DNA of 64,000 nt from Leptothrix discophora (GTDB taxonomy: Bacteria; Pseudomonadota; Gammaproteobacteria; Burkholderiales; Burkholderiaceae_C): positions 186,001 to 250,000 of the forward strand of contig NZ_JAUZEE010000001.1 of the NCBI RefSeq assembly GCF_030705305.1, written 5' to 3'. Of this stretch, positions 10,179 through 35,675 are shown piece after piece. The position numbers and the translations under genes are program-made. How positions within the stretch are numbered: position 1 is the stretch's first letter; each line of letters begins with the position of its first letter. The notes under the pieces were generated by a model. It made no database searches. It had not been told where the DNA came from and saw only the letters and a list, made by a program, of their open reading frames with translations.

Positions 10179-10298
10179 GCGCGTTTCACGGCCGCGTCCT
10201 GCGGCCCCGGTGCGTGTCATGGCCGGATGAACCGCCCTGCAAGCGGCTAACCTATCGAACCCGAGACCCCTGCCGAGATGACCGAGGAGCGACCCGAC

Positions 10299-18863: not shown

Positions 18864-19379
18864 TCACGCCTCCTCGTCGCCCCCCGCGTCGCCACCGCCG
18901 TTCTGCTGGTCGATCTGCTGCATGCGGTCGAGCATCTTCAGCAGGTAGTGCAGCGCGTGGCTCATGTCGTTGACCGAGAAGTCGCCCAGCACCTGCTCGT
19001 AGTAGGCATGGATCTTGGGCAGCGCCTGCTGCTGCCAGACGACATGGCCGGACTCGGTCATGCGCACGCGGCGCGAGCGCCGGTCGCGGTCATCGGGCGC
19101 ACTGACGATGTGGCCGTCGCGTTCCATGCGGCCGATCAGGCCGGACAGGTTCTGGCGGCTGACCATCAGGTAGCGCGCCAGCTCGCCCACGCCCATGCCG
19201 TCGACCACCTGTGGCCGCGACAGCGCGCCCAGCACGGCCCATTGCTGCGTGGTCAGCCCTTCGGCCTCGACCGCGCGGGTGCCGGTCTTGTGCAGCAGGT
19301 TGGCGCACTGGTAGAGGCGGAAGAAGAGCCGGTTGGCCAGGTCGATGCGCGTGCTCTGGTGGTGTTCGGTCGTGGCCAT
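18864..19379 (-). CDS. MarR-family transcriptional regulator
   Basis: A 171-residue winged-helix regulator shows LTTQQWAVLGALSRPQ, MGVGELARYLMVSRQNLSGLIGRMERDGH and the wing DRDRRSRRVRMTESG. Many MarR proteins near aromatic-acid genes respond to phenolic acids or their CoA esters. It has a short Gly/Asp/Glu-rich C-terminal tail. It lies between transporter 1 (convergent) and the AraC gene (same strand), so its target is unclear. Self-regulation or control of transporter 1 is a guess. Confidence 0.9.
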   Translation of the reverse strand: MATTEHHQSTRIDLANRLFFRLYQCANLLHKTGTRAVEAEGLTTQQWAVLGALSRPQVVDGMGVGELARYLMVSRQNLSGLIGRMERDGHIVSAPDDRDRRSRRVRMTESGHVVWQQQALPKIHAYYEQVLGDFSVNDMSHALHYLLKMLDRMQQIDQQNGGGDAGGDEEA

Positions 19380-19487
19380 GCGTGCGGGCTTGAAGGAGGG
19401 GCGGGCTGCGAATAGCCAGCATGTTGACGCAGTTTCGCGTGCACCGGGCGCCCGGCCGGCCTGCGGGCGGTGCGGGCCGGCGACGGG

Positions 19488-20435
19488 TCAGTCGAGGGAC
19501 GCGGCCACCGGCGCGCGTCGCGGCGGTGCCAGCTGGGCCTGCGCCAGCTCGCGGAACTCGGTCGGCGTGCAGCCGGTCTGCTTCTTGAAGAAGCGGCCGA
19601 AGTAGGCCTCGTCGGCATAGCCCAGCAGCGCGGCGATCTGCTTGACGCTGAGGATGGAGTAGACGAGCTCGCGCTCGGCCTCATGCACCACCCGCGCGCT
19701 GATCACGTCCAGCGCGGACATGCCCAGCACCTCGCGGCACAGGCGCGAGAGCTGGCCCGCGCTGATGCCCAGCGGGCTGGCGTAGTCGTCCAGCGAGAGC
19801 CGCTCGCGGTAGCGTTCATCGACCATCGCGCGGAAGCGCTCGACCTGCGCGGCCTTGCGGTTGCGCGTGCCGGCCTCGCCGTCCTCGCCGCTGTGCAGGA
19901 CCGCCTGGATGCGGGCGATCTGCACGAACACCGCCAGCAGCAGCGCCATGCCCGCGCTGGCCACGCCGCTGGGGTGCACGCGGGTCTCGCGGTCGAGCGC
20001 CTGGAACAGCGGCAGCAGCGCCTCGGCGTGGCGGCTCGCATCGCCGACGTCGTCGAGCAGGCCGATCGCCAGCGGCTTGCGGATCTGCGCCACCAGCGCC
20101 GGCGCGGCCACCGCGGCGATCGACTCCAGCGGACGCTGCGCGGCCGTCACCACCGGACCGTCGACCTCCGGCAACCAGTCGAAGCCGTGCACGTGCCGGC
20201 TCGGCACCACGATCAGCGCGGGTGCGCGCAGCGTGTGGCGCTCGCCGTCGATCAGCACGTCGCCGCCGCCCTGGGTCAGGTAGAGCACCTGGATCATGCC
20301 GTCGTGCACATGCGGATCGATGCGGTAGTCGTGCATCGATGAACGCTCGTGGATCTGCTCGATGTGGACCATGTCCAGCCAGGCCGGCTGGGCCTCGTGG
20401 CCATAGAGCGCGTAGTTCGGGATGCGCGAGTTCAT
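19488..20435 (-). CDS. AraC-family regulator, PobR-like
   Basis: A 315-residue activator has an N-terminal cupin-like sensor (SMHDYRIDPHVHDGMIQVLY, ALIVVPSRHVHGFDW) and two C-terminal helix-turn-helix motifs (LSLDDYASPLGISAGQLSRL; KQIAALLGYADEAYFGRFFK). The IPNYALYGHEAQ...HIEQIHERSSMHDY start resembles AraC-type activators of 4-hydroxybenzoate hydroxylase (PobR). It diverges from the SDR/flavoprotein operon at 20549 and probably activates it, perhaps sensing a hydroxybenzoate-like acid. The ATG at 20435 has GGGAG upstream; longer reading enters the shared promoter region. Family sure, effector inferred. Confidence 0.88.
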   Translation of the reverse strand: MNSRIPNYALYGHEAQPAWLDMVHIEQIHERSSMHDYRIDPHVHDGMIQVLYLTQGGGDVLIDGERHTLRAPALIVVPSRHVHGFDWLPEVDGPVVTAAQRPLESIAAVAAPALVAQIRKPLAIGLLDDVGDASRHAEALLPLFQALDRETRVHPSGVASAGMALLLAVFVQIARIQAVLHSGEDGEAGTRNRKAAQVERFRAMVDERYRERLSLDDYASPLGISAGQLSRLCREVLGMSALDVISARVVHEAERELVYSILSVKQIAALLGYADEAYFGRFFKKQTGCTPTEFRELAQAQLAPPRRAPVAASLD

Positions 20436-20465
20436 GCGGGTTTCTCCCAGGAGTCCGTGCACGAA

Positions 20466-20493
20466 TTGTCCGACTCTCTGCCGCGTTTGTCGA
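20466..20493. promoter_or_regulatory. Direct repeats, possible AraC activator site
   Basis: TTGTCCGA (20466-20473) and TTGTCGA (20487-20493) are direct repeats with starts 21 bp apart, two helical turns. They lie between the AraC gene and the operon it faces. This arrangement is typical of AraC-family binding sites. Confidence 0.45.
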
Positions 20494-20548
20494 TTGAGGC
20501 CGGCGCCCCTCGTTCCTACGATCCGCCCCACGCCAACAAGGAGATGTG

Positions 20549-21496
20549 GTGGACGCGACTTCCCCGATGCGTGGCTTGCAGGCTGGCGCCCAAGCAGCTG
20601 AGAAGCCCGAAAAGTCTGGTATCCAGGACGGTGGTCCTGACCTCGCGCGGGCCCGTCACTGGCTCGGCCTGGCGGGCCGCGTGGTGGTCGTCAGCGGCGC
20701 GGCCAGTGGCATCGGCCGGGCCATCGCGCAGGGGCTGTGCGAGGCGGGTGCCAAGGTCGCGCTGATCGACCGCGACGCCGACGGCGTGCAGGTCGCGGCC
20801 GATGCGTTGCGCGCCGCCGGTGCGGACGTGCTGGGCCTGGCCTGCGACATCGCCGACGAGGCCGGCGTGCGCGCCGCCGCCGAGCGCGTGCGCCGCGAGC
20901 TGGGCCCCGTCGAGGGCCTGGTCAACAACGCCGGCCTGCTGCGCGCCGGCCCGCTGGCCGAGGTCACGCTGGCGGACTGGAACACCGTGCTGGCGGTCAA
21001 CCTGACCGGCTACCTGCTGTGCTCGCGCGAGTTCGGCGCCGACATGCGAGCGGCCGGTCGCGGCAGCATCGTGCACATCGCCAGCATCTCGGCGCTGCAC
21101 CCGCAGACCCGCAGCGGCGCCTACAGCGCCAGCAAGGCCGGCGTGCTGCTGCTCAACAAGCAGCTGGCGGCCGAGTGGGGGCCGCTGGGCGTGCGCAGCA
21201 ACGCGGTCTGCCCCGGAATGATCCGCACCGCGCTGTCGGCCCGCTTCTACGAGGAACCCGGCTTCGAGGCCCGTCGCGCCGCCGTCACCGCCAGCCGCCG
21301 CGTCGGCGAGCCGGTCGACATCGCCGAGCCGGCGTTGTTCCTGCTGAGCGAGCGCGCGGCCTACGTCAACGGCACCGAGCTGGTGGTCGACGGCGGGCTG
21401 GACTGCATGTTGATGGACATGGTGCCGCGCCCCGGCTTCAACGACACGCGCTGCGCGCCGGTCGAAGCCGCCAGCGCTGTGCCGGCCTCCCACTGA
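20549..21496 (+). CDS. Short-chain dehydrogenase/reductase (SDR 1)
   Basis: A 315-residue classical SDR has an extended N-terminus of about 40 residues. VVVSGAASGIGRAIA is the cofactor motif, NNAG is present, and the catalytic Ser and YSASK are in SISALHPQTRSGAYSASK. Aspartate in VALIDRDADG favours NAD. It probably oxidises a ring hydroxyl to a ketone ahead of the flavoprotein that follows 19 bp downstream. The start is probably the GTG at 20549, 5 nt after AAGGAG; the GTG at 20546 is only 2 nt after it. The substrate is unknown. Confidence 0.88.
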   Translation: MDATSPMRGLQAGAQAAEKPEKSGIQDGGPDLARARHWLGLAGRVVVVSGAASGIGRAIAQGLCEAGAKVALIDRDADGVQVAADALRAAGADVLGLACDIADEAGVRAAAERVRRELGPVEGLVNNAGLLRAGPLAEVTLADWNTVLAVNLTGYLLCSREFGADMRAAGRGSIVHIASISALHPQTRSGAYSASKAGVLLLNKQLAAEWGPLGVRSNAVCPGMIRTALSARFYEEPGFEARRAAVTASRRVGEPVDIAEPALFLLSERAAYVNGTELVVDGGLDCMLMDMVPRPGFNDTRCAPVEAASAVPASH

Positions 21497-21515
21497 CCTT
21501 CACGAGGAAACCCCG

Positions 21516-23306
21516 ATGAACACGAGCAACTGCGACGTCCTGGTGATCGGCTCCGGTGCCGGCGGCCTGTCCGCGGCGGTGACCGCGCGCCAGGCCGACC
21601 TGGACGTGATCGTGGCCGAGAAGGCCCCCGTCTTCGGCGGCACCACCGCCTTCAGCGGCGGCGTGCTGTGGATCCCCGGCAACCGGCATGCCCGGGCCCA
21701 GGGCATCGTCGACAGCCAGGACGCCGCCCGGGAGTACCTGCGCCGCGAGACCGGCGCATGGTTCAACGAGGCCGCCAGCGAGCTGTTCCTCGACCATGCC
21801 GCCGAGATGGTCGACTGGTTCGAGCGCGAGACGTCGGTGAAGTTCGTGCCGACGCTCTACCCGGACTACCACCCGGACGTGCCCGGTGGCGCCGACGTCG
21901 GCCGCTCCATCCTGGCCGCGCCCTTCGACATCCGCGGCCTCGGCGCCGACATGGCGCGGCTGCGCCCGCCGCTGAAGACCATCACCTTCATCGGCATGAT
22001 GTTCAACTCGTCCAATGCGGACCTGAAGCACTTCTTCCGCGCGACGAAGTCGCTGACGTCCTTCTTCTATGTGTGCAGGCGCCTGGCCACCCACCTCAAG
22101 GAACTGGCGATCTACCGGCGCGGCGTGCAGGTCACCAGCGGCAACGCGCTGGCCGCGCGGCTGGCCAAGTCCGCGCTGGACCTGGGCGTCCCGATCTGGA
22201 CCGACAGCCCGGCGCGTCGCCTGATCGTCGAGGACGGTCGTGTGGTCGGCGCGGTGCTGCAGCGCGACGGCGTCGACCAGGTCGTGCGTGCGCGACATGG
22301 CGTGGTGCTGGCCTGCGGCGGCTTCCCGCACGACCGCGAGCGCATCGCCCAGGCCTATCCGCACCTGCGCCGCGGCGGCGAGCACCTGTCGCCGGTGCCG
22401 GTGGACAACACCGGCGACGGCATCCGGCTGGCCGAGACGGTGGGGGCGAAGCTGGAGATCCGCTTCCCGTCGACCTCCGCCTGGATGCCGGTCTCGAAGG
22501 TGCCCTACGCGGACGGCAGCCACGGCGTCTTCCCACACCTGCTGGACCGCTACAAGCCCGGCATCATCGGCGTGACCCGCGACGGTCGACGCTTCTGCAA
22601 CGAGTCGGAGTCGTATCACGACGTCGGCGCGGCCATGATCAAGGCCTGCGAAGGCCAGGCCGAGACCGCGATGTGGCTGGTCTGCGACCAGCAGGCGCTG
22701 TCGCGCTACGGCCTGGGCCACGTCAAGCCCGCGCCGATGCCGCTGGCCGGCCCGATCCAGCGCGGCTACCTGCTGCGGGGCCGCACGCTGGAAGAACTGG
22801 CGGCGCAAGCCGGCATCGACGCCGCCGGGCTGGTGCGCACGGTGGCCGAGTACAACGAGGGCGCGCGCGAGGGCGTCGACCGCCAGTTCGGCCGTGGCAC
22901 GACCCGCTTCAACCGCTACCTGGCCGATCCGGAGAACCAGCCCAACCCCTGCGTCGCGCCGATCGGGCAGGGCCCGTACTACGCGGTCAAGGTCATCATG
23001 GGCGACCTGGGCACCTTCGACGGCCTGGACACCACGCCGCAGGGCGAGGTGCTGGATGCCGAGCACCACGTCATCCCCGGCCTCTACGCGGTGGGCAACG
23101 ACCGGGCCAGCATGATGGGCGGCAACTACCCGGCCGCCGGCATCACGCTGGGCCCGAACATGACCTTCGGCTGGCTGACCGCGCGGCTGATCGTGCAGCG
23201 GGCCTGCGAGTCGAATCCCGACCCGGCGCATCCGGCCGACGCGGCACAGGCTCAGTCGTCGAGCCAGCCTGCCGCAACGCCCGCCCAGGAGGCCGCGCAT
23301 GCCTGA
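21516..23306 (+). CDS. FAD-dependent 3-ketosteroid-dehydrogenase-like flavoprotein (1)
   Basis: This 596-residue flavoprotein belongs to the FAD_binding_2 family (fumarate reductase / 3-ketosteroid dehydrogenase). The dinucleotide motif VIGSGAGGLSA is at residues 10-20, and VFGGTTAFSGGVLWIP follows. Residues resembling the KstD tyrosines are visible: LYPDYHPDVPGG, CNESESYHDVG and GQGPYYAVKVIMGDLGT. YAVGNDRASMMGGNYPAAGI closes the FAD domain. Such enzymes insert a double bond next to a ring ketone. Lying between two SDRs, it may desaturate an oxo-cyclohexane acid or a steroid-like ring. The substrate is inferred. Confidence 0.88.
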   Translation: MNTSNCDVLVIGSGAGGLSAAVTARQADLDVIVAEKAPVFGGTTAFSGGVLWIPGNRHARAQGIVDSQDAAREYLRRETGAWFNEAASELFLDHAAEMVDWFERETSVKFVPTLYPDYHPDVPGGADVGRSILAAPFDIRGLGADMARLRPPLKTITFIGMMFNSSNADLKHFFRATKSLTSFFYVCRRLATHLKELAIYRRGVQVTSGNALAARLAKSALDLGVPIWTDSPARRLIVEDGRVVGAVLQRDGVDQVVRARHGVVLACGGFPHDRERIAQAYPHLRRGGEHLSPVPVDNTGDGIRLAETVGAKLEIRFPSTSAWMPVSKVPYADGSHGVFPHLLDRYKPGIIGVTRDGRRFCNESESYHDVGAAMIKACEGQAETAMWLVCDQQALSRYGLGHVKPAPMPLAGPIQRGYLLRGRTLEELAAQAGIDAAGLVRTVAEYNEGAREGVDRQFGRGTTRFNRYLADPENQPNPCVAPIGQGPYYAVKVIMGDLGTFDGLDTTPQGEVLDAEHHVIPGLYAVGNDRASMMGGNYPAAGITLGPNMTFGWLTARLIVQRACESNPDPAHPADAAQAQSSSQPAATPAQEAAHA

Positions 23307-23679
23307 GCTGCATCCCGCCGTCCTGGCCGCGGCGGCCAAGCCGCTGGTCGACCACCGCGTCTACACCATCACCTTGCGCCGCATGGGCGAGTTCATCGAG
23401 GTCTTCGACCGCCTGGCCATGCCGGTGCTGATGGCCACGCTGGGTCATCCGCTGGGCTTCTGGACCAGCGTGGTCGGGCCGCAGAACCAGTTCGTGCACC
23501 TGTGGGGCTACGACAGCCTGGCCGACTACGAGGCGCGCTGCCGCGCCCGTGACAGCCACCCCGGTTTCCCGGCCTACCTGGCCGCCTCCGGCCACCTGAT
23601 CACCGCCCAGGAGACCCGCCTGATCCGCCGCGCCGAGCTGCCGCTGTTGCAAGCCTGGATGCCGGGAGCGTCGGCATGA
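23299..23679 (+). CDS. NIPSNAP-family protein, single domain
   Basis: A 126-residue ferredoxin-like fold protein shows [18 protein letters not shown] and the conserved [21 protein letters not shown], typical of NIPSNAP. The biochemical role of the family is unclear. It overlaps the flavoprotein gene by 8 bp and the next SDR by 4 bp (ATGA), so it is tightly coupled to both. A second, tandem NIPSNAP protein occurs at 39517 in a related operon. Confidence 0.85.
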
Positions 23680-24482
23680 CGGCGCAGGCGATGAACGGCC
23701 GCGTCGCCGTCGTCACCGGCGCAGCCGACGGCATCGGCTGGGCCACCGCGCAGCGCCTGGCGGCCGACCACGCCCATGTCGTCGTGCTCGACCTGCGCGC
23801 CGATGCGGCGGTCGCGCGGGCTGCCGGGCTGGGTCCCGAGCACCTCGGCCTGGGTTGCGACGTGGCGCAGGAAGCGTCGGTTGCCACGGCCGTCGCAGCG
23901 GTGCTGGCCGCCTTCGGCCGCATCGACACGCTGGTCAACAACGCCGGCATCGGCGACCAGGCCGGCGCCACCGTGGACCAGGACGTCGGCGCCTTCGACC
24001 GCGTGCTGGGCGTGCACCTGCGCGGCACCTTCCTGATGAGCCGCGACGTCGGCCGCGTGATGCTGGCGCAGGGCGGCGGCGCGATCGTCAACCTGGCCTC
24101 GATCGTGGCCTCCGCCGGCATCCCCGGCCGCAATGCCTACGGCGCGGCCAAGGCCGGCATCGTCGGCATGACGCAGGCCATGGCGGTCGAGTGGGGCCTG
24201 CACGGCGTGCGCGTCAACGCGGTCGCGCCGGGCTACGTGCGCACCGCGCTGGTCGATCGGCTGGCCGTGCAGGGTGCGCTGAAGACCGAGGCCATCGAGG
24301 CCCGCACGCCCATGGGCCGCATGGGCCGCCCTGACGAGATCGCCGAGGCGATCGCCTTCCTGGCCTCGCCGGCGGCGAGCTACGTCACCGGCACGGTGCT
24401 CAAGGTCGACGGCGGCTGGACCGCCCATGGCGGAACGATCCCGGCGGTGCCGCCGGTGGTCGGGCAGGGCGACACACGCTGA
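23676..24482 (+). CDS. Short-chain dehydrogenase/reductase (SDR 2)
   Basis: A 268-residue classical SDR has [25 protein letters not shown], the catalytic serine in [10 protein letters not shown] and YGAAK in [12 protein letters not shown]. Aspartate in VVLDLRAD suggests NAD. It starts inside the NIPSNAP stop codon (ATGA). With SDR 1 it would give two ring-alcohol oxidation steps around the flavoprotein. The specific reaction is unknown. Confidence 0.9.
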
Positions 24483-24500
24483 GGTCGACCGGCCGAACCC

Positions 24501-24528
24501 AGAACACAGAACACAAAACACAGAACAC
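24501..24528 (+). repeat. Four tandem 7-bp AGAACAC units
   Basis: The units AGAACAC, AGAACAC, AAAACAC and AGAACAC run head to tail just before the GGAG ribosome-binding site of the permease gene at 24542. The stretch is unusually A-rich for this genome and would form an unstructured mRNA leader. Confidence 0.75.
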
Positions 24529-24541
24529 AGGAGACATCGAC

Positions 24542-25390
24542 ATGACCATCCACCTCTTCAATGGCCTCGTCTACGGCGCGCTGCTGATCGTGATGTGCTC
24601 GGGCCTGGCGCTGATCTACGGCCTGCGCCGGGTCGTCAACTTCGCCCACGGCTCGCTCTACATGCTGGGCGCCTACATCGGCTATTCGGTCGCGCTGCAA
24701 AGCAACTTCTGGGTCGCGCTGGTGGTTGCGCCGGCCGTCATGGCCGTGCTGGGCGTGGTGATCGACCGCTGGGGCTTCCGTCTGCTGCAGGACCGCGATC
24801 CGCTGTCGGTCGTGCTGGTCACCTTCGGCGGCCTGCTGGTGATCGAGGACTTCGTGCAGACCGTCTGGGGCAAGAGCAACCTGTCGGTCAGCGCACCGGC
24901 CGAGCTGGCCTTCTCGGTCGACCTGTGGGGCACGCCGGTGCCGGCCTACCGGCTGGGCGTGATCGTGGTCGGCGCGGCCGTCGCGATCGGCCTGACGCTG
25001 TGGCTGCGCTACTCGAAGGTCGGCCTGTTCGTGCGCGCGGCCAGCACCGACCCGGTGACCACCGCGATGCAGGGCGTGCACACCGACGCGCTCAGCGCGA
25101 TGGTGGTTGGCCTGGGCACGGCGCTGGCCGGCCTGGCCGGCGTGGTCGCCGCGCCCTTCCTGTCGCTGTCGCCGTCGATGAGCAGCGACGTGATCATCGA
25201 CAGCTTCGTGGTCGTCGTGATCGGTGGCCTGGGCAGCCTGGCCGGTGCCTTCGTGGCCGCGATGGCGCTGGGCCTGGTGCAGGCGCTCGGCGCCGTCTGG
25301 CTGCCCGATGCGTCGGTGCTGCTGCCCTTCCTGCTGATGGTGGCGATCCTGCTGTGGAAGCCGGCCGGCTTCGCGGGCAGCCGCACCTGA
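24542..25390 (+). CDS. Liv-type ABC transporter permease, LivH-like (transporter 2)
   Basis: A 282-residue inner-membrane permease has the LivH pattern LALIYGLRRVVNFAHGSLYMLGAY near the N-terminus and VVVVIGGLGSLAGAFVAAM near the C-terminus. CAGGAG precedes the ATG by about 8 nt. It opens the transporter part of the SDR/flavoprotein gene cluster and pairs with the LivM-like permease 54 bp downstream. Confidence 0.95.
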   Translation: MTIHLFNGLVYGALLIVMCSGLALIYGLRRVVNFAHGSLYMLGAYIGYSVALQSNFWVALVVAPAVMAVLGVVIDRWGFRLLQDRDPLSVVLVTFGGLLVIEDFVQTVWGKSNLSVSAPAELAFSVDLWGTPVPAYRLGVIVVGAAVAIGLTLWLRYSKVGLFVRAASTDPVTTAMQGVHTDALSAMVVGLGTALAGLAGVVAAPFLSLSPSMSSDVIIDSFVVVVIGGLGSLAGAFVAAMALGLVQALGAVWLPDASVLLPFLLMVAILLWKPAGFAGSRT

Positions 25391-25444
25391 GTCGCGTCCG
25401 AGCCCTTCGACGCCGCCCGTCCACCCGCCCCGCGAGGACCTTCC

Positions 25445-26482
25445 ATGACCCCCGTGCAACTCCTGCTGTCCGCCGCCGGCGCGATGGCCGTCGGTGTCGC
25501 CGTCGCCTTCGGCGTGGCCTCCGGCACCGTGCTGTCGCTGCTCACGCAGGCGACCATCTACGCGATCTTCGCCCTCGGCGTGGGCCTGCTGCTGCGCCAG
25601 AACGGCATGGTCAGCTTCGGCCACGCGCTGTACTTCGGCGCCTCGGGCTATGTCGTCGCCATCCTGCTGCAGCTCAAGGCCATGCCGGCGGAATGGGCCG
25701 TGCTGGTCGCCATCGCCGGCCTGGCCGTGCTGGCCTTCGTGGTGGGCCTGGTGATCGTGCGCGTGCCCGGCGTCGCCTTCGGCATGCTGACGCTGGCGAT
25801 CGGCCAGATGGCCTACCTCACCGCCTCGCGCTCACGCGGCCTGACCGGCGGCGCGGACGGCATGTCGATCGACTGGCCGTCGACGCTGTTCGGCCTGCCG
25901 ATCTCGCTCATCACCAAGCCGGCCGGGCTGCTGCTGGTCAGCTGGGGTTCGCTGGTGCTGGCCCTGCTGCTGCTCGCGCTGCTGCTGCGCTCGCGCTTCG
26001 GCGCCATCACCGAGGCGGTGCGCGACAACGAGGAGCGGGCCCGCTTCATCGGCATCCGCACGCTGCTGCCGCGTGCGGCGGTCTACGCGCTGTCGGCCGC
26101 CGTCACCGCGCTGGCCGGCGTGCTGGCGGCCCTCAACACCGGCTTCATCTCGCCCGAGTCGTTGCACTGGAGCCTGTCCGGCGTGGCCCTGATGATGGTC
26201 GTGGTCGGCGGCACCCGCGTGCTGTGGGGGCCGGCGCTGGGCGCGGCCGTCTACTTCCTGGCCAAGGACGTGCTGGGCGACCACGCGCAGCACTGGATGG
26301 CGATCTTCGGCATCGCGCTGATCGTGGTGATCGTGTTCGCGCCCGAGGGCCTGTCGGGCTACCTGCAGCGGCTGTGGACGCGCCGCCCTTCCGCGCAGGC
26401 TGTCGCGCCCGCTGCGTCGCGGACCACGCCGTCGACCGCCCCGTCGACCACCCCGGCGACAGCCCCGGCAATCACCCACTGA
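25445..26482 (+). CDS. Liv-type ABC transporter permease, LivM-like (transporter 2)
   Basis: A 345-residue membrane permease shows IFALGVGLLLRQNGMVSFGHALYFGASGY and ITEAVRDNEERARFIGI, the LivM signatures. The C-terminal 30 residues are a low-complexity Ala/Thr/Pro/Ser tail, encoded by short imperfect repeats of the type ACCGCCCCGTCG. The tail is cytoplasmic by topology and probably not needed for transport. Confidence 0.94.
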   Translation: MTPVQLLLSAAGAMAVGVAVAFGVASGTVLSLLTQATIYAIFALGVGLLLRQNGMVSFGHALYFGASGYVVAILLQLKAMPAEWAVLVAIAGLAVLAFVVGLVIVRVPGVAFGMLTLAIGQMAYLTASRSRGLTGGADGMSIDWPSTLFGLPISLITKPAGLLLVSWGSLVLALLLLALLLRSRFGAITEAVRDNEERARFIGIRTLLPRAAVYALSAAVTALAGVLAALNTGFISPESLHWSLSGVALMMVVVGGTRVLWGPALGAAVYFLAKDVLGDHAQHWMAIFGIALIVVIVFAPEGLSGYLQRLWTRRPSAQAVAPAASRTTPSTAPSTTPATAPAITH

Positions 26483-26507
26483 TCCCCGCGTCCCGCAGGA
26501 GAACCCC

Positions 26508-27227
26508 ATGACCGACTACGTGCTCCAGACCGAGGACGTCGCGATCCACTACGGCGGCGTGAAGGCGCTCGACGGCGTCGCGCTGACCCTTGAACGTGGC
26601 CAGATCCGCGGCCTGATCGGCCCCAACGGCGCGGGCAAGTCCACCGTCATCGACGCCATCACCGGCCGCCGCCGCCTGACCCGCGGCAAGGTCACGCTCG
26701 GCGGCCAGGACGTGAGCGCGCTGGGCGTGGTCGAACGCCGCCAGCGCGGCCTGTCGCGCAGCTTCCAGCGCACCAGCGTGTTCGGCCAAATGCGGGTGCG
26801 CCAGCAGGTCGAACTGGCGTCGCACCAGATGGGCGCGGACGATCCCGGTGCCGATGCCGATGACGTGCTGCAGGAGCTGTCGCTGGACCGCATGGCCGAC
26901 ACGCTGGCGGTCGACCTCGGCTATGGCGAGCAGCGCCGGCTGGACCTCGCGCTGGCGCTGGTCGGCCGTCCCAGCGTGTTGCTGCTGGACGAGCCGATGG
27001 CCGGCCTGTCGGTGCAGGAGTCGCTCGACCTGGCCCAGCACCTGAAGGCCCTGACGACCCGCCGCAAGGTCTCGGTGCTGCTGGTCGAACACGACATGGA
27101 CGTGGTCTTCGGCATCTCCGACCAGGTCACCGTGTTCGAGCTCGGCCGCGTCATCGCGCAGGGCAGCCCGGCCCAGGTGCGGGCCGACCCCCGGGTGCGC
27201 GAGGCCTACCTCGGCAGCGCGGCCTGA
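26508..27227 (+). CDS. Liv-type ABC transporter ATPase, LivG-like (transporter 2)
   Basis: A 239-residue ATPase has Walker A GPNGAGKS, a signature region LGYGEQRRLDLALALVG, Walker B VLLLDEPMAGLSV and H-loop VEHDMDVVF. The C-signature is YGEQ, the usual LivG variant of SGGQ. CAGGAG precedes the ATG. It forms the ATPase pair with the gene at 27282. Confidence 0.95.
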   Translation: MTDYVLQTEDVAIHYGGVKALDGVALTLERGQIRGLIGPNGAGKSTVIDAITGRRRLTRGKVTLGGQDVSALGVVERRQRGLSRSFQRTSVFGQMRVRQQVELASHQMGADDPGADADDVLQELSLDRMADTLAVDLGYGEQRRLDLALALVGRPSVLLLDEPMAGLSVQESLDLAQHLKALTTRRKVSVLLVEHDMDVVFGISDQVTVFELGRVIAQGSPAQVRADPRVREAYLGSAA

Positions 27228-27281
27228 CGCGTCCCGAACCGCACCGACGGCCAGAACACCCGATCACGACGAGGCACCACG

Positions 27282-27983
27282 ATGTCCACCCCCTTGCTTG
27301 AACTCGAAGGCGTCCAGTCCTACTACGGCTCGGCGCACATCCTCCACGGCCTCGACCTGCGCGTGAACGCGGGCGAGCGCGTCGCGCTGATCGGCCGCAA
27401 CGGCGTGGGCAAGACCACCGTCGTCAACACCGTGCTGGGCCTGGCCGCGCTGCGCGGCGGGCGCGTCGCGCTGGCCGGCCGCGCGATGCCGAGGCCGCGA
27501 ACCTACATGGCCGCGCAGCGCGGCGTCGTGGTCGTGCCGCAGGGCCGCCGCATCGTTGCCAACCTGACGGTCGAGGAGAACCTCAAGCTCGGTGCCGCCA
27601 CCGGCCGCACGGGCCACTGGACGGTGCCGGAGGTCTACAAGCTCTTCCCCATCCTGCAGGAGCGCGCCCACACGCCCGGCACCGCCCTGTCCGGTGGCCA
27701 GCAGCAGATGCTGGCGGTCGGTCGCGCGCTGATGGCCAACCCGTCGCTGATCCTGCTGGACGAGCCCACCGAGGGCCTTGCGCCGGTGATCGTCGACCAG
27801 CTCGGCGTGATCTTCAACGAGGTCGCGCGCCAGGGCACCGCACTGCTGCTCATCGAGCAGAACATGACCCTGGTCGCGCGCGTCGCCGAACGCTATTGCG
27901 CGATGGCCAAGGGCTCGGTCGTCGCCCAGGGCGTGGTCGCGCAGACCAGCCTCGACGAGCTGCACGCTCACGTGATGGTCTGA
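27282..27983 (+). CDS. Liv-type ABC transporter ATPase, LivF-like (transporter 2)
   Basis: A 233-residue ATPase has Walker A GRNGVGKT, signature ALSGGQQQMLAVGRALM, Walker B LILLDEPTEGLAP and H-loop IEQNMTLV. VVVPQGRRIVANLTVEENL is LivF-like. It is followed by three 25-bp tandem repeats and then the binding protein, so here the binding protein is last in the operon, unlike transporter 1. Confidence 0.95.
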   Translation: MSTPLLELEGVQSYYGSAHILHGLDLRVNAGERVALIGRNGVGKTTVVNTVLGLAALRGGRVALAGRAMPRPRTYMAAQRGVVVVPQGRRIVANLTVEENLKLGAATGRTGHWTVPEVYKLFPILQERAHTPGTALSGGQQQMLAVGRALMANPSLILLDEPTEGLAPVIVDQLGVIFNEVARQGTALLLIEQNMTLVARVAERYCAMAKGSVVAQGVVAQTSLDELHAHVMV

Positions 27984-28025
27984 GGACCTCGCGTCGCCGA
28001 CACAGGCAGCGCAAACCCCTTTTTC

Positions 28026-28101
28026 CACCGGCCGCAGGCCGATACAGCCCCACCGGCCGCAGGCCGACACAGCCCCACCCGGCCGCAGGCCGACACAGCC
28101 C
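28026..28101 (+). repeat. Three tandem 25-bp repeats before the binding-protein gene
   Basis: Units start at 28026, 28051 and 28076, the third with one extra C. Each contains the small inverted repeat CGGCCGCAGGCCG followed by a GAyACAGCCC tail. They fill most of the gap between the LivF-like gene and the binding-protein gene. Triple hairpins here could protect or attenuate the mRNA. Confidence 0.85.
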
Positions 28102-28129
28102 GACCGGGCGCATTCCAAGGAGACCGTCG

Positions 28130-29326
28130 ATGACCCCGAACTTCACCCGCCGCAGCGTGGCCCTGGCCGCCCTGTTCGCAACCATCCTCGCCATGCCCGC
28201 GGCCGTCCTGGCCCAGGCCAAGGACCCGGTCCGCGTCGGCCTGGTCAGCTCCAAGTCGGGCGTGTTCGCCCAGCAGGGCGAGGAGGTCATCCGCGCCGTC
28301 AGGTTCGCGATCGACGAGGCGAACGCCAAGGGCGGCGTCGACGGCCGCAAGGTCGAGGTCGCCGAGGCCGACGACGAGGGCACGCCCGATGCCGGCCGCC
28401 GCGTCGCCGAGAAGCTGGCGCGCGACGGCTACAACCTGCTGATCGGCGCGATCCCGTCGTCGATCTCGCTGGCCCTGGCGCCGAACCTCGAACGCTGGGA
28501 CGCGGCCTACTTCGTCGTCGCCAGCAAGAGCGACAAGATCACCGGCGACACCTGCAAGCCGCGTGTCTTCCGCACCAACCACTCGGACGCGATGGACATC
28601 GCCATGATCAGCGAGTGGGCCAAGGGCTTCAAGGAGAAGACCTATGCCTCGCTGGCGGCCGACTACGTCTGGGGCCGCGACTCGGCCGAGTCCTTCGCCA
28701 AGGCCGTCAAGGCGCAGGGCAAGGACGTCAAGCTGCAGCTCTACGCACCGCTGGGCACCAAGGACTTCTCGCCCTTCATCGCCCAGCTCAAGGAGGCCAA
28801 GGTCGACGCGATCTGGGTCGCCGAGACCGGCCGCGACGCGATCGCCTTCGTCAAGCAGGCGCAGGAGTTCGGCCTGATCCCGCAGACCCGGCTGGTGGGT
28901 CACTCGCTGATCCTGAACTTCATGATCAACGCGACCGACAAGTCGCTCGAAGGCACGCCCGGCACCACCGGCTACACGCCCGACATCGACAACGCCCGCA
29001 ACAAGGCGTTCGTGGCTGCCTGGAAGGCCAGGTTCAACCGCCTGCCGACCGACAACGAGGGCCAGGCCTACAACGGCGCACAGGTCATGTTCGAGGGCGT
29101 GAGGCTCGCGAAGAGCGCCAAGCCGGCCGACGTGAGCAAGGCCCTGAGCGGGGCGATGATCGACTCGATCTACGGCAACGTGCAGATGCGTGCGGCCGAC
29201 AACCAGTTGATGCTGCCGAACTTCGTCGGCCGCGCCAAGGTCGTCGACGGCCAGCTGCGTCCGGTGATCGAGCAGACCTTCGCCGCCAGCTCGATGCCCG
29301 GCCCGTCGCCGCTGTGCAAGATGTGA
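28130..29326 (+). CDS. Liv-type ABC transporter substrate-binding protein (transporter 2)
   Basis: A 398-residue periplasmic protein starts with a signal peptide (MTPNFTRRSVALAALFATIL...VLAQA). The type I binding-protein fold shows VRVGLVSSKSGVFAQQGEEV, AIDEANAKGGVDGRKVEV and AADYVWGRDSAESF. A cysteine pair (one in DTCKPRVF, one in SPLCKM) may form a disulfide. It completes transporter 2 and precedes flavoprotein 2. The ligand is probably the substrate of the neighbouring SDR/flavoprotein genes. Confidence 0.93.
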   Translation: MTPNFTRRSVALAALFATILAMPAAVLAQAKDPVRVGLVSSKSGVFAQQGEEVIRAVRFAIDEANAKGGVDGRKVEVAEADDEGTPDAGRRVAEKLARDGYNLLIGAIPSSISLALAPNLERWDAAYFVVASKSDKITGDTCKPRVFRTNHSDAMDIAMISEWAKGFKEKTYASLAADYVWGRDSAESFAKAVKAQGKDVKLQLYAPLGTKDFSPFIAQLKEAKVDAIWVAETGRDAIAFVKQAQEFGLIPQTRLVGHSLILNFMINATDKSLEGTPGTTGYTPDIDNARNKAFVAAWKARFNRLPTDNEGQAYNGAQVMFEGVRLAKSAKPADVSKALSGAMIDSIYGNVQMRAADNQLMLPNFVGRAKVVDGQLRPVIEQTFAASSMPGPSPLCKM

Positions 29327-29361
29327 CCGGCACGGCATGAACGGGGTGCGTCCGACAAAAA

Positions 29362-29386
29362 TGGAATACAATTCCAATATTGTATT
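29362..29386. promoter_or_regulatory. Nested palindromes upstream of flavoprotein 2 (probable IclR operator)
   Basis: TGGAATACAATTCCA (29362-29376) is a perfect 6-3-6 palindrome. Overlapping it, AATACAAT (29365-29372) and ATTGTATT (29379-29386) form a second inverted repeat. The stretch is AT-rich and holds candidate -10 hexamers TACAAT and TATTGT. The GGAATnnnATTCC core recurs at 35718-35730 in front of the IclR gene, which suggests control by that protein. Confidence 0.7.
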
Positions 29387-29415
29387 TCATTCCGGTTCTG
29401 CACCGGACGCGCCCC

Positions 29416-31200
29416 ATGTCGCTGCTGCAAACCCTTCCGTCGCTGCCCTCGGACGCGGCCTACGACCTGGTCGTGATCGGTGCCGGTGGCGCCGGCCTGT
29501 CGGCCGCGCTGCATGGGGCGATCGACGGGGCGCGGGTGCTGGTGGTCGAGCGCACCGGCTACGTCGGCGGCACCACCGCCTGGTCGGCCGGCACGACCTG
29601 GATCCCGTGCACCCGCCATGCCCGGTCGGTGCCTGGCGAGGACAGCCTCGCGCAGGCCGAGGGCTACCTCGACCGGGTCGTCGGCCTGCATGCGGATGCC
29701 GCGCTGCGGCGCGCCTTCCTGGCCCATGGCGCCGAGGCGGTCGAGCGCTTCGAGCAGCACACCGAGGTCCACTACCGGCCCTACGCGACCCATCCGGACT
29801 ACGAGTCCGACATCGAGGGCGCAACCTTGCGCGGCCGGGCGCTGGAGCCGCTGCCCTTCGACGGCCGCCGACTCGGCGCGCTGTTCGGCGCGCTGCGTCC
29901 ACCCATTCCCGAGTTCACCGTGCTGGGCGGCATGATGGTCGACCGCACCGACATCAACCACCTGCTGGCGATGGGGCGCTCGCTGGCCTCGCTCCGGCAC
30001 GCCATCGGCATCGTCGGCCGCCATGCGGTCGACCGCCTGAGCCACCCGCGCGGCACCCGGCTGGTGATGGGCAACGCGCTGGTCGGGCGGCTGCTGCACT
30101 CGCTGGCGCAACGCCCGAACGTGACGCTGCTGCTGCACACGCAAATGCGCGAGATCCATGTCGAGGCGGGCGGGACGGCCGATGAACACGGGCCTCGCGC
30201 GATCGAGGCGATCACGCTTGAGGCCGGCAGCGCGACCCGGCGCGTGCGCGTGCGGGGCGGTCTCGTGCTGTCCAGCGGCGGCATCAACCGCGACCCGCAG
30301 TGGCGCGCGCGCATGCTGCCCGGCATCCCGATGGACTGGTGCCCCGGCGCACCCGGCCACACCGGCCAGGCCCAGGCGCTGGCCCTGCAGCTGGGCGCCC
30401 GTCACGGCGAAGGTGCGGCCAGCCCGGCCTTCTGGGCACCGGTGTCGCTGCGCCGGCGTCCGGACGGCAGCACGGCCGTCTTCCCACATTTCGTGATGGA
30501 CCGCGCCAAGCCCGGCATGCTGACGATCAACCAGGCCGGCCGGCGCTACCTCAACGAGAGCACCTCCTACCACCGCTACGGTCTGGCGATGCAGGCCGAG
30601 CAGCGCCGCAGCGAACGCGGCGATCTCGGTGCCGGTGCGGCGCTGCCGTCGTGGATCGTCTGCGATGCGGCGGCGCTCAAGCGCCACGGCCTGGGCATGG
30701 TCCGCCCTGGCGGCGGTGGGCTGGCGGCCTTCCTCGCCGATGGCTACCTGCGCACCGGCGCGACGCTGGCCGAACTCGCCGTGCGCATCGGGGTGGACGC
30801 CGCCACGCTGGAAGCCACCGTGGCCACCCACAACCGCCATGCCGAGGCCGGCCTTGACCCCGACTTCCAGCGCGGCACGACGGCCTACCAGCGCAACATC
30901 GGCGACGCGACCTGGCCGGGCCGCAACCCCAACCTCGGTGCGCTGGCGACCGGGCCGTACTACGCGGTCCAGGTCGTGCCGGGCGACATCGGCGCGGCGG
31001 TCGGTCTGCAGACCGACGACCGCGCCCGCGTGCTGGATGCCCAGGGCACGCCCATCGCCGGCCTCTACGCGGTCGGCAACGATGCCCAGTCCATCATGGG
31101 CGGCACCTACCCGGGTCCCGGCATCACGATCGGCCCAGGCATGGTCTTCGGCTACCTCGCCGCCCGCGACGCCGTGGCGCGGGCCACAGCAGCGGCGTGA
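29416..31200 (+). CDS. FAD-dependent 3-ketosteroid-dehydrogenase-like flavoprotein (2)
   Basis: A 594-residue FAD_binding_2 flavoprotein has [16 protein letters not shown] at about residues 19-34, YVGGTTAWSAGTTWIP, ATHPDYESD, LNESTSYHRYG and ATGPYYAVQVVPGDIG. These match the KstD-type catalytic tyrosine regions. It ends with YAVGNDAQSIMGGTYPGPGI. The ATG at 29416 was chosen because the longer frame starts with TTG inside the operator. It probably carries out a ring desaturation beside a ketone. It has its own promoter with an IclR-type palindrome. Confidence 0.87.
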   Translation: MSLLQTLPSLPSDAAYDLVVIGAGGAGLSAALHGAIDGARVLVVERTGYVGGTTAWSAGTTWIPCTRHARSVPGEDSLAQAEGYLDRVVGLHADAALRRAFLAHGAEAVERFEQHTEVHYRPYATHPDYESDIEGATLRGRALEPLPFDGRRLGALFGALRPPIPEFTVLGGMMVDRTDINHLLAMGRSLASLRHAIGIVGRHAVDRLSHPRGTRLVMGNALVGRLLHSLAQRPNVTLLLHTQMREIHVEAGGTADEHGPRAIEAITLEAGSATRRVRVRGGLVLSSGGINRDPQWRARMLPGIPMDWCPGAPGHTGQAQALALQLGARHGEGAASPAFWAPVSLRRRPDGSTAVFPHFVMDRAKPGMLTINQAGRRYLNESTSYHRYGLAMQAEQRRSERGDLGAGAALPSWIVCDAAALKRHGLGMVRPGGGGLAAFLADGYLRTGATLAELAVRIGVDAATLEATVATHNRHAEAGLDPDFQRGTTAYQRNIGDATWPGRNPNLGALATGPYYAVQVVPGDIGAAVGLQTDDRARVLDAQGTPIAGLYAVGNDAQSIMGGTYPGPGITIGPGMVFGYLAARDAVARATAAA

Positions 31201-31206
31201 CCCTTC

Positions 31207-31271
31207 GGGCCGGCAGGCACCGGCCCGCCCGCCTCACCCGTCCCTTCGGGTGCCCTCCTCAGGGGGAGGGC
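31207..31271 (+). terminator. Hairpin cluster after flavoprotein 2
   Basis: Three hairpins follow the stop codon: GGGCCGG / CCGGCCC (31207-31226), CACCCG / CGGGTG (31235-31252) and GCCCTCC / GGAGGGC (31252-31271). None has a clear U-tract. They probably end or protect the upstream transcript. The rest of the gap up to 31370 shows nothing else. Confidence 0.5.
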
Positions 31272-31375
31272 GCTCTCCCGCCCGCTCGTCAACCATGGCC
31301 CGCACGCCCCGTCACCCCGACGCGGCGCCGGGCCGGTCCGTCTGCCTCATCCGAAGGAGGGGATCCGGCATCTGA

Positions 31376-31392: not shown

Positions 31393-31396
31393 AAAG

Positions 31397-31991: not shown

Positions 31992-32025
31992 ACGGGCCTC
32001 GACCCAGGCCGTGCCCAAGCACCCC

Positions 32026-32868
32026 TCAGCGCGGGCCCACCCTGGCGGCCCGACGTTCATCGGCCTGCGCCAGCACCCGGTCGGTCGCCGCGATGGCCAG
32101 GCGGGCCCATGCCTCGTAGCCCATCGCCGGGGCGCGTGATTCGCTCGGCACCTCGATGCTGATCGTCAGGTCGGCCGGCAGGCGCGAGAACAGGTCGACC
32201 AGGTCGATGTCGCCTTCGCCCGGCAGCAGGCGCTCGCAGCGGGCGTCGTGGATCAGGCCGGCCACCGTGGTCGGACCGGGCACCCGGCCGTCGCAGATCT
32301 GGGCGTAGTTCAGGCGCTGGCGCGGCCAGCCGGCCAGGTCCTCGATGCGGCTCGGCGAACGCGCCACGTGCAGCGCATCGAACAGCACCGCCGCGTTGGG
32401 CTGGTCAACCGCCGCGACGATGCGCTGCGCGGCAGCCAGCGTCGGCACGGCGGTCCAGGGCATGAACTCGAGGTCGGCGCTGAGGCCGTGGCGGGCGGCC
32501 GCCTCGCAGAAGGCGGCGTAGGACGCGGTCAGGCGGGCCTCGTCCGGGTCATCGCCCGCGACCAGCACGTGGGCTGCGCCCAGGCCCGCGCCGCAGGCCA
32601 GGAAGGCCTCGTAGCGGGAGGCCTCGAAGTCGGCGTCCAGGCGCACCACCTCCAGGTCCAGCACCTGCACGCCGGTGTCGCGGATCGCCGCCAGCGCCTC
32701 GCGCTGGCCGGCCGGGTCGTCCATCAGCGGGTGGTGCAGGCCGCCGGGTGCGGCGGGCAGCAGCCGGATGCCGGCGGCGGCGCAGCCGGTGGCGGCGGCC
32801 AGGCGGACCATCTGCGCCGGGTTCAGCGGCAGGGCCATCAGCTGGGCGAGGGAGTAGCGACGGGACAT
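32026..32868 (-). CDS. Sugar-phosphate-isomerase-fold TIM barrel (dehydroshikimate dehydratase-like)
   Basis: A 280-residue xylose-isomerase-like TIM barrel has the four metal ligands expected for this fold: Glu in ADLEFMPW, Asp in VLFDALHVA, Gln in NYAQICDG and Glu in SIEVPSES. It shares this pattern with the dehydratase-like barrel at 11212, but overall similarity is lower. It may be a dehydratase or epimerase acting on a ring acid. It lies 91 bp downstream of flavoprotein 3 on the same strand. The specific reaction is unknown. Confidence 0.8.
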   Translation of the reverse strand: MSRRYSLAQLMALPLNPAQMVRLAAATGCAAAGIRLLPAAPGGLHHPLMDDPAGQREALAAIRDTGVQVLDLEVVRLDADFEASRYEAFLACGAGLGAAHVLVAGDDPDEARLTASYAAFCEAAARHGLSADLEFMPWTAVPTLAAAQRIVAAVDQPNAAVLFDALHVARSPSRIEDLAGWPRQRLNYAQICDGRVPGPTTVAGLIHDARCERLLPGEGDIDLVDLFSRLPADLTISIEVPSESRAPAMGYEAWARLAIAATDRVLAQADERRAARVGPR

Positions 32869-32940: not shown

Positions 32941-32968
32941 GTGTCTCAGGTGGCGTGTCTCAGGTGGC
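32941..32968. repeat. 14-bp tandem duplication at the end of flavoprotein 3
   Basis: GTGTCTCAGGTGGC occurs twice head to tail. The duplication includes the flavoprotein 3 stop codon (32960-32962), so a second in-frame-looking stop lies just downstream. It looks like a recent slippage event. Confidence 0.8.
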
Positions 32969-34748: not shown

Positions 34749-34800
34749 GATCGTTCAGCGCGATCGTTCAGTACGAACGTTCATCGCGAACGTTCATCGC
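34749..34800. repeat. Four tandem 13-bp repeats between IclR and flavoprotein 3
   Basis: Units GATCGTTCAGCGC, GATCGTTCAGTAC, GAACGTTCATCGC and GAACGTTCATCGC run head to tail with one helical turn-like period. Weaker copies may extend to 34737. The last units overlap the stop codon of the IclR gene (34794-34796). They sit 20-70 bp before the flavoprotein 3 start, so they may be protein-binding iterons or simple slippage. Confidence 0.9.
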
Positions 34801-35675
34801 GATCGGCTCGCCGCACGCGTCGCGGCAGCGGGCCTGGCGGTCGCGCGGGCGGCCGGCTCGGCATCGATGGCAACGGGACTGGGCTGGGCCGGCGCATAGG
34901 CCCGGTTGAACAGCGGCGAGGCCGCGCTGATGCCGGCCAGGTCACTGGCGGCGGCCAGCAGCTCGGGGGCCCATTGCTGCATCTTGGCCTCGGTCAGCCG
35001 CACGGCCGGACCGGACATCGCCAGCACGCCGACCGCGCCCTTGCCCGAGGGCACCAGCGCGGTCGACATCGCGTTCAGGCCGGGCGCGTAGGTCTCGCAG
35101 GTCACCGCATAGCCCTGCTTGCGGACCTGCCGGACCAGCTTGAGCACCGCCTGCATCGAGCTGGGCGCGTTCGGCCCGTAGGCCGGTGGCAGGCCCAGGC
35201 CCTGGCGGCTGACCAGCGCGATCGCGTCGTCTTCCGGCAGCGTCGACAGCCAGGCGATGCCGGAGGCCGTGCACGACAGCTTCACGTCGATGCCCTGGTC
35301 TGGGTCGTAGCGCAGGCCCGAGCGGGTGCCCTGCGACAGCGAGACCCAGGTGATGTGGTCGACGTCGACGACGCCCAGCCGCACCAGCTCGCCGCTGGCC
35401 TCGGCCAGCCGGTCGAGGATGGGCTGGCAGAGGTCGATCGCGCCGGAGGCCTTGAGGTAGTTCAGACCCATCGACACCAGCTTGGTGGTCAGCATGTAGT
35501 CGCCGCGCTCGCGCGACTGGCGCACCCAGCCCAGCTCGCCGAGTTCCATCAGCAGGCGATGGGCGGCGCTGCGCGGGATGTCCAGCTCGTCGGCCAGCGT
35601 GGCCAGCGGCACGCCCTGCACCTCGGTGGCGAGCCGTTCCAGGATCGCCAGGGTTCTCTGCATCACGCCGGACAT
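34794..35675 (-). CDS. IclR-family transcriptional regulator (2)
   Basis: A 293-residue regulator has a winged helix (VMQRTLAILERLATEVQGVP, LATLADELDIPRSAAHRLLMELGELGW) and an IclR effector domain (GELVRLGVVDVDHITWVSLS, LSCTASGIAWLST). An Ala/Arg-rich tail of about 25 residues is encoded partly by the 13-bp repeats. It diverges from the dehydrogenase/acyl-CoA dehydrogenase operon at 35799, with a GGAATnnnATTCC palindrome between. The same motif fronts flavoprotein 2. It is a likely local repressor or activator of both. GGAG precedes the ATG. Confidence 0.93.
   Translation of the reverse strand: MSGVMQRTLAILERLATEVQGVPLATLADELDIPRSAAHRLLMELGELGWVRQSRERGDYMLTTKLVSMGLNYLKASGAIDLCQPILDRLAEASGELVRLGVVDVDHITWVSLSQGTRSGLRYDPDQGIDVKLSCTASGIAWLSTLPEDDAIALVSRQGLGLPPAYGPNAPSSMQAVLKLVRQVRKQGYAVTCETYAPGLNAMSTALVPSGKGAVGVLAMSGPAVRLTEAKMQQWAPELLAAASDLAGISAASPLFNRAYAPAQPSPVAIDAEPAARATARPAAATRAASRSR

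Follow-up and report, generated by a model that had tools for sequence, protein, structure and literature searches.

A candidate gene module for the aromatisation of ring-hydroxylated cyclohexanecarboxylate in Leptothrix discophora, with neighbouring KstD-like flavoproteins

Proposed function and gene content of module A

A 64,000-nucleotide stretch of the Leptothrix discophora genome (contig NZ_JAUZEE010000001.1, positions 186,001 to 250,000; G000:C11:186001-250000 in our numbering), hereafter the window, contains a cassette that we call module A. The source genome has a size of 4.65 Mb. The cassette encodes an AraC/XylS-type regulator, two short-chain dehydrogenases/reductases (SDR1 and SDR2), a flavoprotein (F1) resembling 3-ketosteroid delta1-dehydrogenase (KstD), a NIPSNAP protein and an ABC transporter (Table 1). 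Judged from its sequence, module A probably serves the uptake of a ring-hydroxylated cyclohexanecarboxylate and its oxidation and KstD-type desaturation to 4-hydroxybenzoate. The gene content, the conservation, the catalytic residues and the genomic linkage described below were observed directly; the substrate, the sequence of steps, the double desaturation by F1, the part played by the NIPSNAP protein and the inducer are inferred.

In the proposed route the ABC transporter would import the acid, most likely 4-hydroxycyclohexanecarboxylate, and SDR1 and SDR2 would, presumably as the next step, form the 4-ketone from its cis and trans alcohols. Desaturation next to the ketone would then be the task of F1, in the manner of KstD and probably on either side of the ring, with Tyr and Gly polarising the ketone, Tyr taking the alpha proton and FAD the beta hydride. 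The resulting dienone would tautomerise to 4-hydroxybenzoate, perhaps aided by the NIPSNAP protein, and PobA, encoded elsewhere in the genome, would pass the product on to protocatechuate. We know of no ketosteroid-isomerase-like tautomerase role for the NIPSNAP family.

Genes were called with our own open reading frame scripts, and their start positions are therefore uncertain; the Pfam scan covered 50 of the 65 window genes. All genes that a sequence-only reading of positions 20549-31200 had named (two SDRs, a NIPSNAP protein, two KstD-like flavoproteins, the ABC transporter and an AraC regulator) were recovered in place as open reading frames with Pfam matches, and the best E-values per gene, 3.4e-19 to 1.2e-101, excluded chance matches. 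The GTG start of SDR1 at 20549 was preceded by an AAGGAG ribosome site, and its product carries the motifs SGAASGIG and YSASK. Within the NIPSNAP protein, 32 positions were the same in 95% or more of 73 sequences, among them the charged and aromatic residues R20, Y22, R27, H67, W69, R80, R84 and D85, which may be functional. Of the six solved relatives of the protein, five were deposited as hypothetical or uncharacterised. The BadR operator sequence CAAN4TTG (PMC9795900) had four matches in the window, none of them between the MarR and AraC genes or between the AraC and SDR1 genes.

Catalytic residues of the KstD-like flavoproteins

Three KstD-like flavoproteins, F1, F2 and F3, are encoded within ∼13 kb (21516-34729). 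A genome-wide search with the ChcC2 model, to which F1 aligned over almost its full length, gave seven matches; F1, F2 and F3 were the sole long ones, and the other four were short and scored 20.5-24 bits. In a tree of 124 flavoproteins, made by a quick method with a distant steroid outgroup and with groups named beforehand by best BLAST match, the relatives of F1, F2 and F3 formed three separate groups with a support of 83, 99 and 98, respectively.

According to PMC5348764, Tyr487 and Gly491 of KstD1 drive keto-enol tautomerisation, Tyr119 and Tyr318 take the proton and FAD takes the hydride. All four residues were kept in F1, in 84 of 84 rows of a first alignment and in 87 of 87 rows of a second, for which three rows below 60% identity were dropped and six were added. 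They were likewise kept in F2 (12 of 12 and, after rows below 50% identity were dropped, 13 of 13). The relatives of F3 have no equivalent of Tyr119. Its position was occupied by Phe in 13 and by Val in 2 of the 15 rows of the first alignment, and in the second, with 18 rows, 16 had Phe and 2 had Val; the other three residues were kept. A longer start of F3 at 34729 instead of 34627 brings back the N-terminal GxGxxG.

F1 belongs to the same family as the steroid enzymes KstD1 (4c3x) and AcmB (7p18), and 7p18 was its closest solved structure (E 3.9e-95). Together with a single KshA_C match in another part of the genome, which was partial and weak (27.8 bits, cut-off 23.3), this is what speaks for steroid ring A degradation by these enzymes, which we rejected as the main reading and consider scarcely credible. 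F1 scored far under the 3-ketosteroid dehydrogenase cut-offs (PRK12844, 472 of 789; PRK07843, 423 of 788; PRK12845, 371 of 793), most of its non-catalytic pocket positions were unlike KstD1 in the second alignment, no long KstD-like match was found in the genome beyond F1-F3, and steroid-specific family names were absent from the 50 of 65 window genes scanned with Pfam. F1 also carries basic residues that are absent from the two steroid KstDs, namely H290, H341 and H368 (87 of 87 rows) and R530 (86 of 87). The three histidines are common to F2 and/or F3, and R530 is specific to F1. These fixed or nearly fixed basic residues would suit an acidic substrate.

The cyclohexanone dehydrogenase of the betaproteobacterium Alicycliphilus denitrificans (8am3) is described in PMC10966990 as a flavin enzyme that desaturates a small ring ketone at the alpha,beta position. 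It was less similar to F1 than 7p18 (E 3e-33 to 9e-33), and its substrate is a neutral ketone.

Conservation and genomic linkage of module A

The neighbourhood of F1 was analysed in 80 loci with F1 relatives at 64-75% identity, the best 80 of 582 confirmed ones and hence biased to close relatives. Flanks reached up to 10 kb per side, shorter at contig ends, and the loci amounted to 1.65 Mb of sequence; two of them, L075 and L081 from Derxia, look like one place counted twice. F1 was accompanied by SDR1 in 67 loci and SDR2 in 31 (at least 50% identity), by the AraC regulator in 66 (at least 40%), by a PcaK-like MFS transporter in 35 and by the same ABC permease in 20. A NIPSNAP gene was present in 72, which ties these poorly understood proteins to KstD-like enzymes. 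The core of module A therefore consists of the regulator, an SDR, F1 and the NIPSNAP protein with a choice of transporter, and the pair of SDRs on which the sequence-only reading relied, although present in the window, is not universal. Three PcaK-like transporters that were scanned scored 436-517 bits to PcaK (cut-off 770). The regulator in the Acinetobacter locus L096 was of the PcaR/PcaU/PobR type (283.2 bits, just below the cut-off of 284.75).

Genes of the PobA family (4-hydroxybenzoate hydroxylase) were found near F1 in 13 of the 80 loci under six taxon labels, the Derxia pair contributing two. All six PobA-like proteins that were scanned exceeded the PRK08243 cut-off and two also that of TIGR02360, the other four reaching 494-533 of 538.7. 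Genes of the bad/ali pathway were near F1 in seven loci. One or the other was thus linked to F1 in 20 of the 80 loci, and both in none, which makes module A a concrete candidate for the 4-hydroxybenzoate route in Proteobacteria. If one pobA per 5 Mb is assumed, roughly 0.3 would be expected in 1.65 Mb, a figure to be set beside linkage counts made without matched control loci.

In Curvibacter (L092), BadH, BadI, the cyclohexanecarboxyl-CoA dehydrogenase and the cyclohexanecarboxylate-CoA ligase (the AliA/AliB pair) encoded upstream of module A all scored above curated cut-offs. Two genomes of the host's genus, G012 and G009, carry badHI-aliAB on the contig of module A some 10-25 kb away. Plasmids of Salipiger and Haematobacter hold aliA-aliB-badI near AraC-F1 and the order pobA-NIPSNAP-AraC-F1, respectively. 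Among three further genomes of the order or family, one (G289) has a PobA relative (51%) beside the AraC gene, and two (G093 and G384) have neither link within 20 kb. F1-type modules occurred in Pseudomonas, Azotobacter, Acinetobacter and many Burkholderiales, and in several Alphaproteobacteria on plasmids; strains with the core of module A include Azotobacter vinelandii CA (L066) and Pseudomonas putida NBRC 14671 (L130). On a plasmid of Neorhizobium petrolearium (L159) the F1 module is flanked by transposase genes, IS66 and IS4 among them, an indication of mobility.

These neighbours and the plasmid cases argue, for module A, in favour of a small alicyclic acid over a steroid, as the sequence-only reading had proposed, and its idea of alcohol oxidation and desaturation towards 4-hydroxybenzoate is probably right for this module. 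Overall that reading was partly supported: its chemistry probably holds for module A, and its boundary and its pairing of desaturases do not. The linked catabolic genes bear as well on the notion that the flavoproteins work in reverse, as fumarate-reductase-like enone reductases that saturate rings. They do share the FAD_binding_2 superfamily with fumarate and urocanate reductases, but pobA and bad/ali belong to known catabolic pathways and the KstD-type catalytic residues are conserved, which makes a reductive role very unlikely.

Co-occurrence in the host genome and its relatives

The host genome carries a badHI-aliAB set on another contig (C26). Its BadI scored 534.8 (cut-off 467.6), and the genes beside it encode proteins with 82% (BadH), 86% (AliB) and 73% (AliA) identity to those of the Curvibacter locus, which places them in the bad-ali set. 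PobA is encoded on contig C1 (679.7 bits, above its cut-off). No match to P450 (PF00067) was found in the host genome, and a P450-dependent start of the pathway, as in the Chc type, was rejected for the host. With bad/ali and PobA present and P450 absent from the matches, bad/ali would probably handle plain cyclohexanecarboxylate and module A those acids that already bear a ring oxygen.

Among 389 genomes of the family, 30 had F1, 65 had BadI above the cut-off and 16 had both (Fisher p 1.5e-6, with relatedness and genome size not fully controlled). When the host's own genome was left out, 15 of 29 F1 genomes had badI (p 4.8e-6). At the genus level, 11 of 17 F1 genera hold F1 and badI in one genome (p 7e-4).

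Comparison with known pathways and points against the proposed function

The sequence-only reading had stated that the gene set matches no standard pathway, which was too strong. The Chc route of Sinomonas cyclohexanicum (Yamamoto 2021, as cited in PMC9795900) proceeds by alcohol dehydrogenation and desaturation of 4-oxocyclohexanecarboxylate to 4-hydroxybenzoate, the chemistry proposed here, and F1 aligned nearly end to end with its ChcC2 model. PMC9795900 lists the aerobic conversion of cyclohexanecarboxylate to 4-hydroxybenzoate for strains of Alcaligenes, Acinetobacter and Pseudomonas as well as for Sinomonas, and the gene-level study that it cites for this route is the Sinomonas one. The bad-ali pathway of Rhodopseudomonas and Aromatoleum acts on the same class of acids, but is described in the same source as a CoA-dependent ring cleavage, with no aromatisation. 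The chemistry of module A is of a known kind, and its proteobacterial gene set is a variant, in which a NIPSNAP protein, an AraC regulator and a transporter of its own, of ABC or PcaK-like type, may be points of difference from the Chc route. A literature search found no description of the cluster in Proteobacteria, with subscription journals thinly covered and mostly titles and abstract openings seen.

Several results weigh against the function proposed for module A. F1 scored below the Chc cut-offs (ChcC2, NF053677, 546 of 900; ChcC1, NF053676, 335 of 1000), and both SDRs were below the cut-off of 350 for ChcB2, the cis-4-hydroxycyclohexanecarboxylate dehydrogenase (SDR1 161.7, SDR2 211.7). 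The Sinomonas route, as cited, uses two desaturases and module A has one. The regulator had been called PobR-like; its AraC type was borne out by HTH_18 and cupin matches, and its closeness to HpaA was not (153.5 against a TIGR02297 cut-off of 274.65). The linkage to bad/ali could reflect a general clustering of catabolic genes. An order-wide sample of 399 genomes had F1 in four, badI above the cut-off in ten and both in two, too few F1 genomes to tell. Finally, F1 occurred in another gene context in 6 to 8 of the 80 loci (Variovorax, Hydrogenophaga, Xenophilus and Pseudacidovorax; protein clusters). The sole such locus that was scanned, L078, encodes a GntR regulator, a thiolase, a ChsH2-type OB protein, an amidohydrolase and a further NIPSNAP protein; a P450 and an FMO-like enzyme are encoded near F1 in Xenophilus (L093), and beta-oxidation-type genes lie beside F1 on a Roseomonas plasmid.

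It is therefore possible that F1 works in more than one pathway, and a single function for all F1 proteins is not certain. A broader form of this idea is that F1 is a generalist alicyclic-ketone desaturase, acting for instance on side-chain naphthenic acids or cyclic terpenoids, and that the substrate in the window is no simple cyclohexanecarboxylate. The thiolase, ChsH2-type, amidohydrolase, P450 and FMO-like neighbours fit it, but the gene order in the window (AraC-SDR-F1-NIPSNAP-SDR-ABC) is that of the loci linked to PobA or bad/ali and not of the thiolase type, and the host genome is without a P450 match; we regard this alternative as decidedly improbable.

The occurrence of F1 and NIPSNAP in L078, L093 and L160 possibly reflects another alicyclic pathway. 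A motif search for P450 near F1 (called proteins of more than 330 amino acids, loci L035-L134) gave one case, the Xenophilus locus, and as this is the other-context locus with the FMO-like gene, it was not used as support.

Boundary of module A and the adjoining module B

By blastn against G007, a further genome of the host's genus (locus L054), window positions 11407-19379 aligned without a break to one stretch of that genome (88.7%), and positions 29356-31180 to the stretch that follows it (84%). G007 has 156 bases between the MarR and F2 genes, where the window has 9976. Insertion of module A in the window and its loss in G007 fit this comparison equally well. A single operon with two desaturases, as implied by the sequence-only reading, was rejected, since module A is a cassette between the MarR and F2 genes. 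F2 belongs instead with F3 and a shikimate-dehydrogenase-like gene to an adjoining module B, and the two modules recur as neighbours. Nor were two desaturases the full set, as F3 lies 1.8 kb beyond the end of that reading at 31200.

F1 was just under the cut-off of PRK06134 (733 of 747), and F2 exceeded that of PRK12843 (758). Both other flavoproteins were, like F1, below the Chc cut-offs: F2 reached 398 of 900 for ChcC2 and 285 of 1000 for ChcC1, and F3 reached 453 of 900 and 313 of 1000 with the N-terminally short call and 480 for ChcC2 with the full frame.

Table 1. Features of modules A and B and of the upstream genes (positions within the window; scores in bits or as E-values).
Feature	Position	Strand	Evidence
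HPPD-like half of split QuiC, upstream module	10278..11192	+	QuiC positions 289-498, 86.2 bits
TIM-barrel (dehydratase) half of split QuiC	11212..12105	+	QuiC positions 5-268, 168.9 bits
Shikimate-dehydrogenase-like, upstream module	13073..13951	+	Shikimate_dh_N 6.2e-15; aroE 144.7 bits (cut-off 200.2)
MarR regulator	18864..19379	-	MarR_2 2.2e-11; NCBIfam: none at 1e-15
Module A as cassette, missing from G007	19380..29355		blastn of window against L054: 156 bases between MarR and F2 genes in G007, 9976 in window
AraC/XylS-type regulator (HpaA/PobR-like), module A	19488..20435	-	HTH_18 1.7e-22 and cupin; HpaA model 153.5 bits
SDR1, proposed hydroxycyclohexanecarboxylate dehydrogenase	20549..21496	+	adh_short_C2 1.5e-62 (scored on 20681-21496)
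F1, KstD-like flavoprotein, proposed oxo-cyclohexanecarboxylate desaturase	21516..23306	+	FAD_binding_2 1.2e-101
NIPSNAP protein, putative enone/dienone tautomerase or accessory protein	23299..23679	+	NIPSNAP 3.4e-19
SDR2, putative second hydroxycyclohexanecarboxylate dehydrogenase for the other stereoisomer	23676..24482	+	adh_short_C2 7.6e-68
ABC permease, branched-chain amino acid type	24542..25390	+	BPD_transp_2 1.5e-32
ABC permease, branched-chain amino acid type	25445..26482	+	BPD_transp_2 2.2e-30
ABC ATPase	26508..27227	+	ABC_tran 2.8e-28, BCA_ABC_TP_C
ABC ATPase	27282..27983	+	ABC_tran 5.9e-28
Periplasmic substrate-binding protein of module A transporter	28130..29326	+	Peripla_BP_6 1.6e-75
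F2, second KstD-like flavoprotein, module B	29416..31200	+	PRK12843 827.5; all four KstD residues
AP_endonuc_2 TIM-barrel, module B	32026..32868	-	1.7e-14; weak QuiC match, 26.8 bits
F3, third KstD-like flavoprotein, module B	32960..34729	-	FAD_binding_2 2.2e-84 on 32960-34627
IclR regulator, module B	34794..35675	-	IclR_C 9.8e-19
Shikimate-dehydrogenase-like, module B	35799..36629	+	Shikimate_dh_N 2.7e-19; aroE 134.2 bits (cut-off 200.2); PDB 4k28 7.7e-41
Acyl-CoA dehydrogenase, module B	36685..37848	+	Acyl-CoA_dh_1 2.7e-47; cyclohexane-1-carbonyl-CoA dehydrogenase 242 bits (cut-off 650)
Fused CoA-transferase, module B	37859..39466	+	CoA_trans 5.6e-29; FadX 339 bits (cut-off 750)
Double NIPSNAP, module B	39517..40131	+	NIPSNAP 3e-27, two stretches

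In three relatives (L044, L048 and L051) F2 is paired with F3, the shikimate-dehydrogenase-like gene, the TIM-barrel gene, the double NIPSNAP gene and in part the IclR gene; in L053 and L054 its neighbours instead resemble the MarR, ABC and shikimate-dehydrogenase-like genes upstream. Fifteen of the 80 loci (14 if the two Derxia loci are counted once) had two or more module B genes near F1, and ∼17.5 kb of the Rhizobium plasmid L165 contain AraC-F1-SDR-SDR together with genes for an ABC transporter and a shikimate dehydrogenase, F2-like and F3-like genes and a double-NIPSNAP relative. This recurrence across classes suggests that modules A and B share a substrate family, perhaps hydroaromatic acids. 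Module B would probably serve alicyclic acids that are linked to CoA or carry more hydroxyl groups.

In G012 a single contig carries, at ∼750-787 kb, badHI-aliAB, module A, F2, F3 and relatives (80-81%) of the module B genes for acyl-CoA dehydrogenase and CoA-transferase (window 36685-39466, L168). The two relatives lie a few kb from badHI-aliAB, which may point to the activation of an alicyclic acid with CoA.

Shikimate-type genes upstream

The surroundings of the modules are not neutral, as two shikimate-dehydrogenase-like genes (13073 and 35799) lie nearby, along with a shikimate dehydrogenase gene at 44459-45292 and what appears to be a split QuiC-like pair. The two halves that make up the dehydroshikimate dehydratases QuiC1/QsuB, as described in PMC7442255, are encoded side by side in the window, but as two genes in reversed order with the HPPD-like half first, and their 168.9 and 86.2 bits are far below the cut-off of 1200 of the full-length two-domain model (NF042435). 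The MarR protein of the window has 68% and 74% identity to those encoded next to badH in G012 and G009, respectively.

The split QuiC pair and the two shikimate-dehydrogenase-like genes, together with the 15 loci and the Rhizobium plasmid mentioned above, are the case for a different substrate of module A, a quinate/shikimate-class acid such as 3,4-dihydroxycyclohexanecarboxylate or dihydroshikimate that modules A and B would convert to protocatechuate as one pathway. PobA, found at 13 F1 loci, is however an enzyme of 4-hydroxybenzoate, and the upstream genes at 13073, 10278 and 11212 occurred in none of the 80 loci at 45% identity or more, so that we consider this substrate class unlikely for module A. 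A wider arrangement is possible, if doubtful, in which modules A and B and the upstream genes would together be a single supercluster for hydroaromatic acids, F1, F2 and F3 being its three KstD-like flavoproteins. It would aromatise saturated cyclohexane acids with several hydroxyl groups (dihydroshikimate, 3,4-dihydroxy- and 4-hydroxycyclohexanecarboxylate), the products would be protocatechuate and 4-hydroxybenzoate, and the NIPSNAP proteins would act as enone/dienone tautomerases.

Two further observations concern the DNA around module B. A BrnT/BrnA type II toxin-antitoxin pair lies at 31397-31991, between F2 and the genes on the F3 side. At 40159-41841 on the reverse strand, a frame of 560 amino acids joins a ThiE-like domain (amino acids 178-368) to a SET domain (amino acids 442-539); the match in G009 covers about half of it, and G007 has a full-length relative with 78% identity (L046, 3353-5035).

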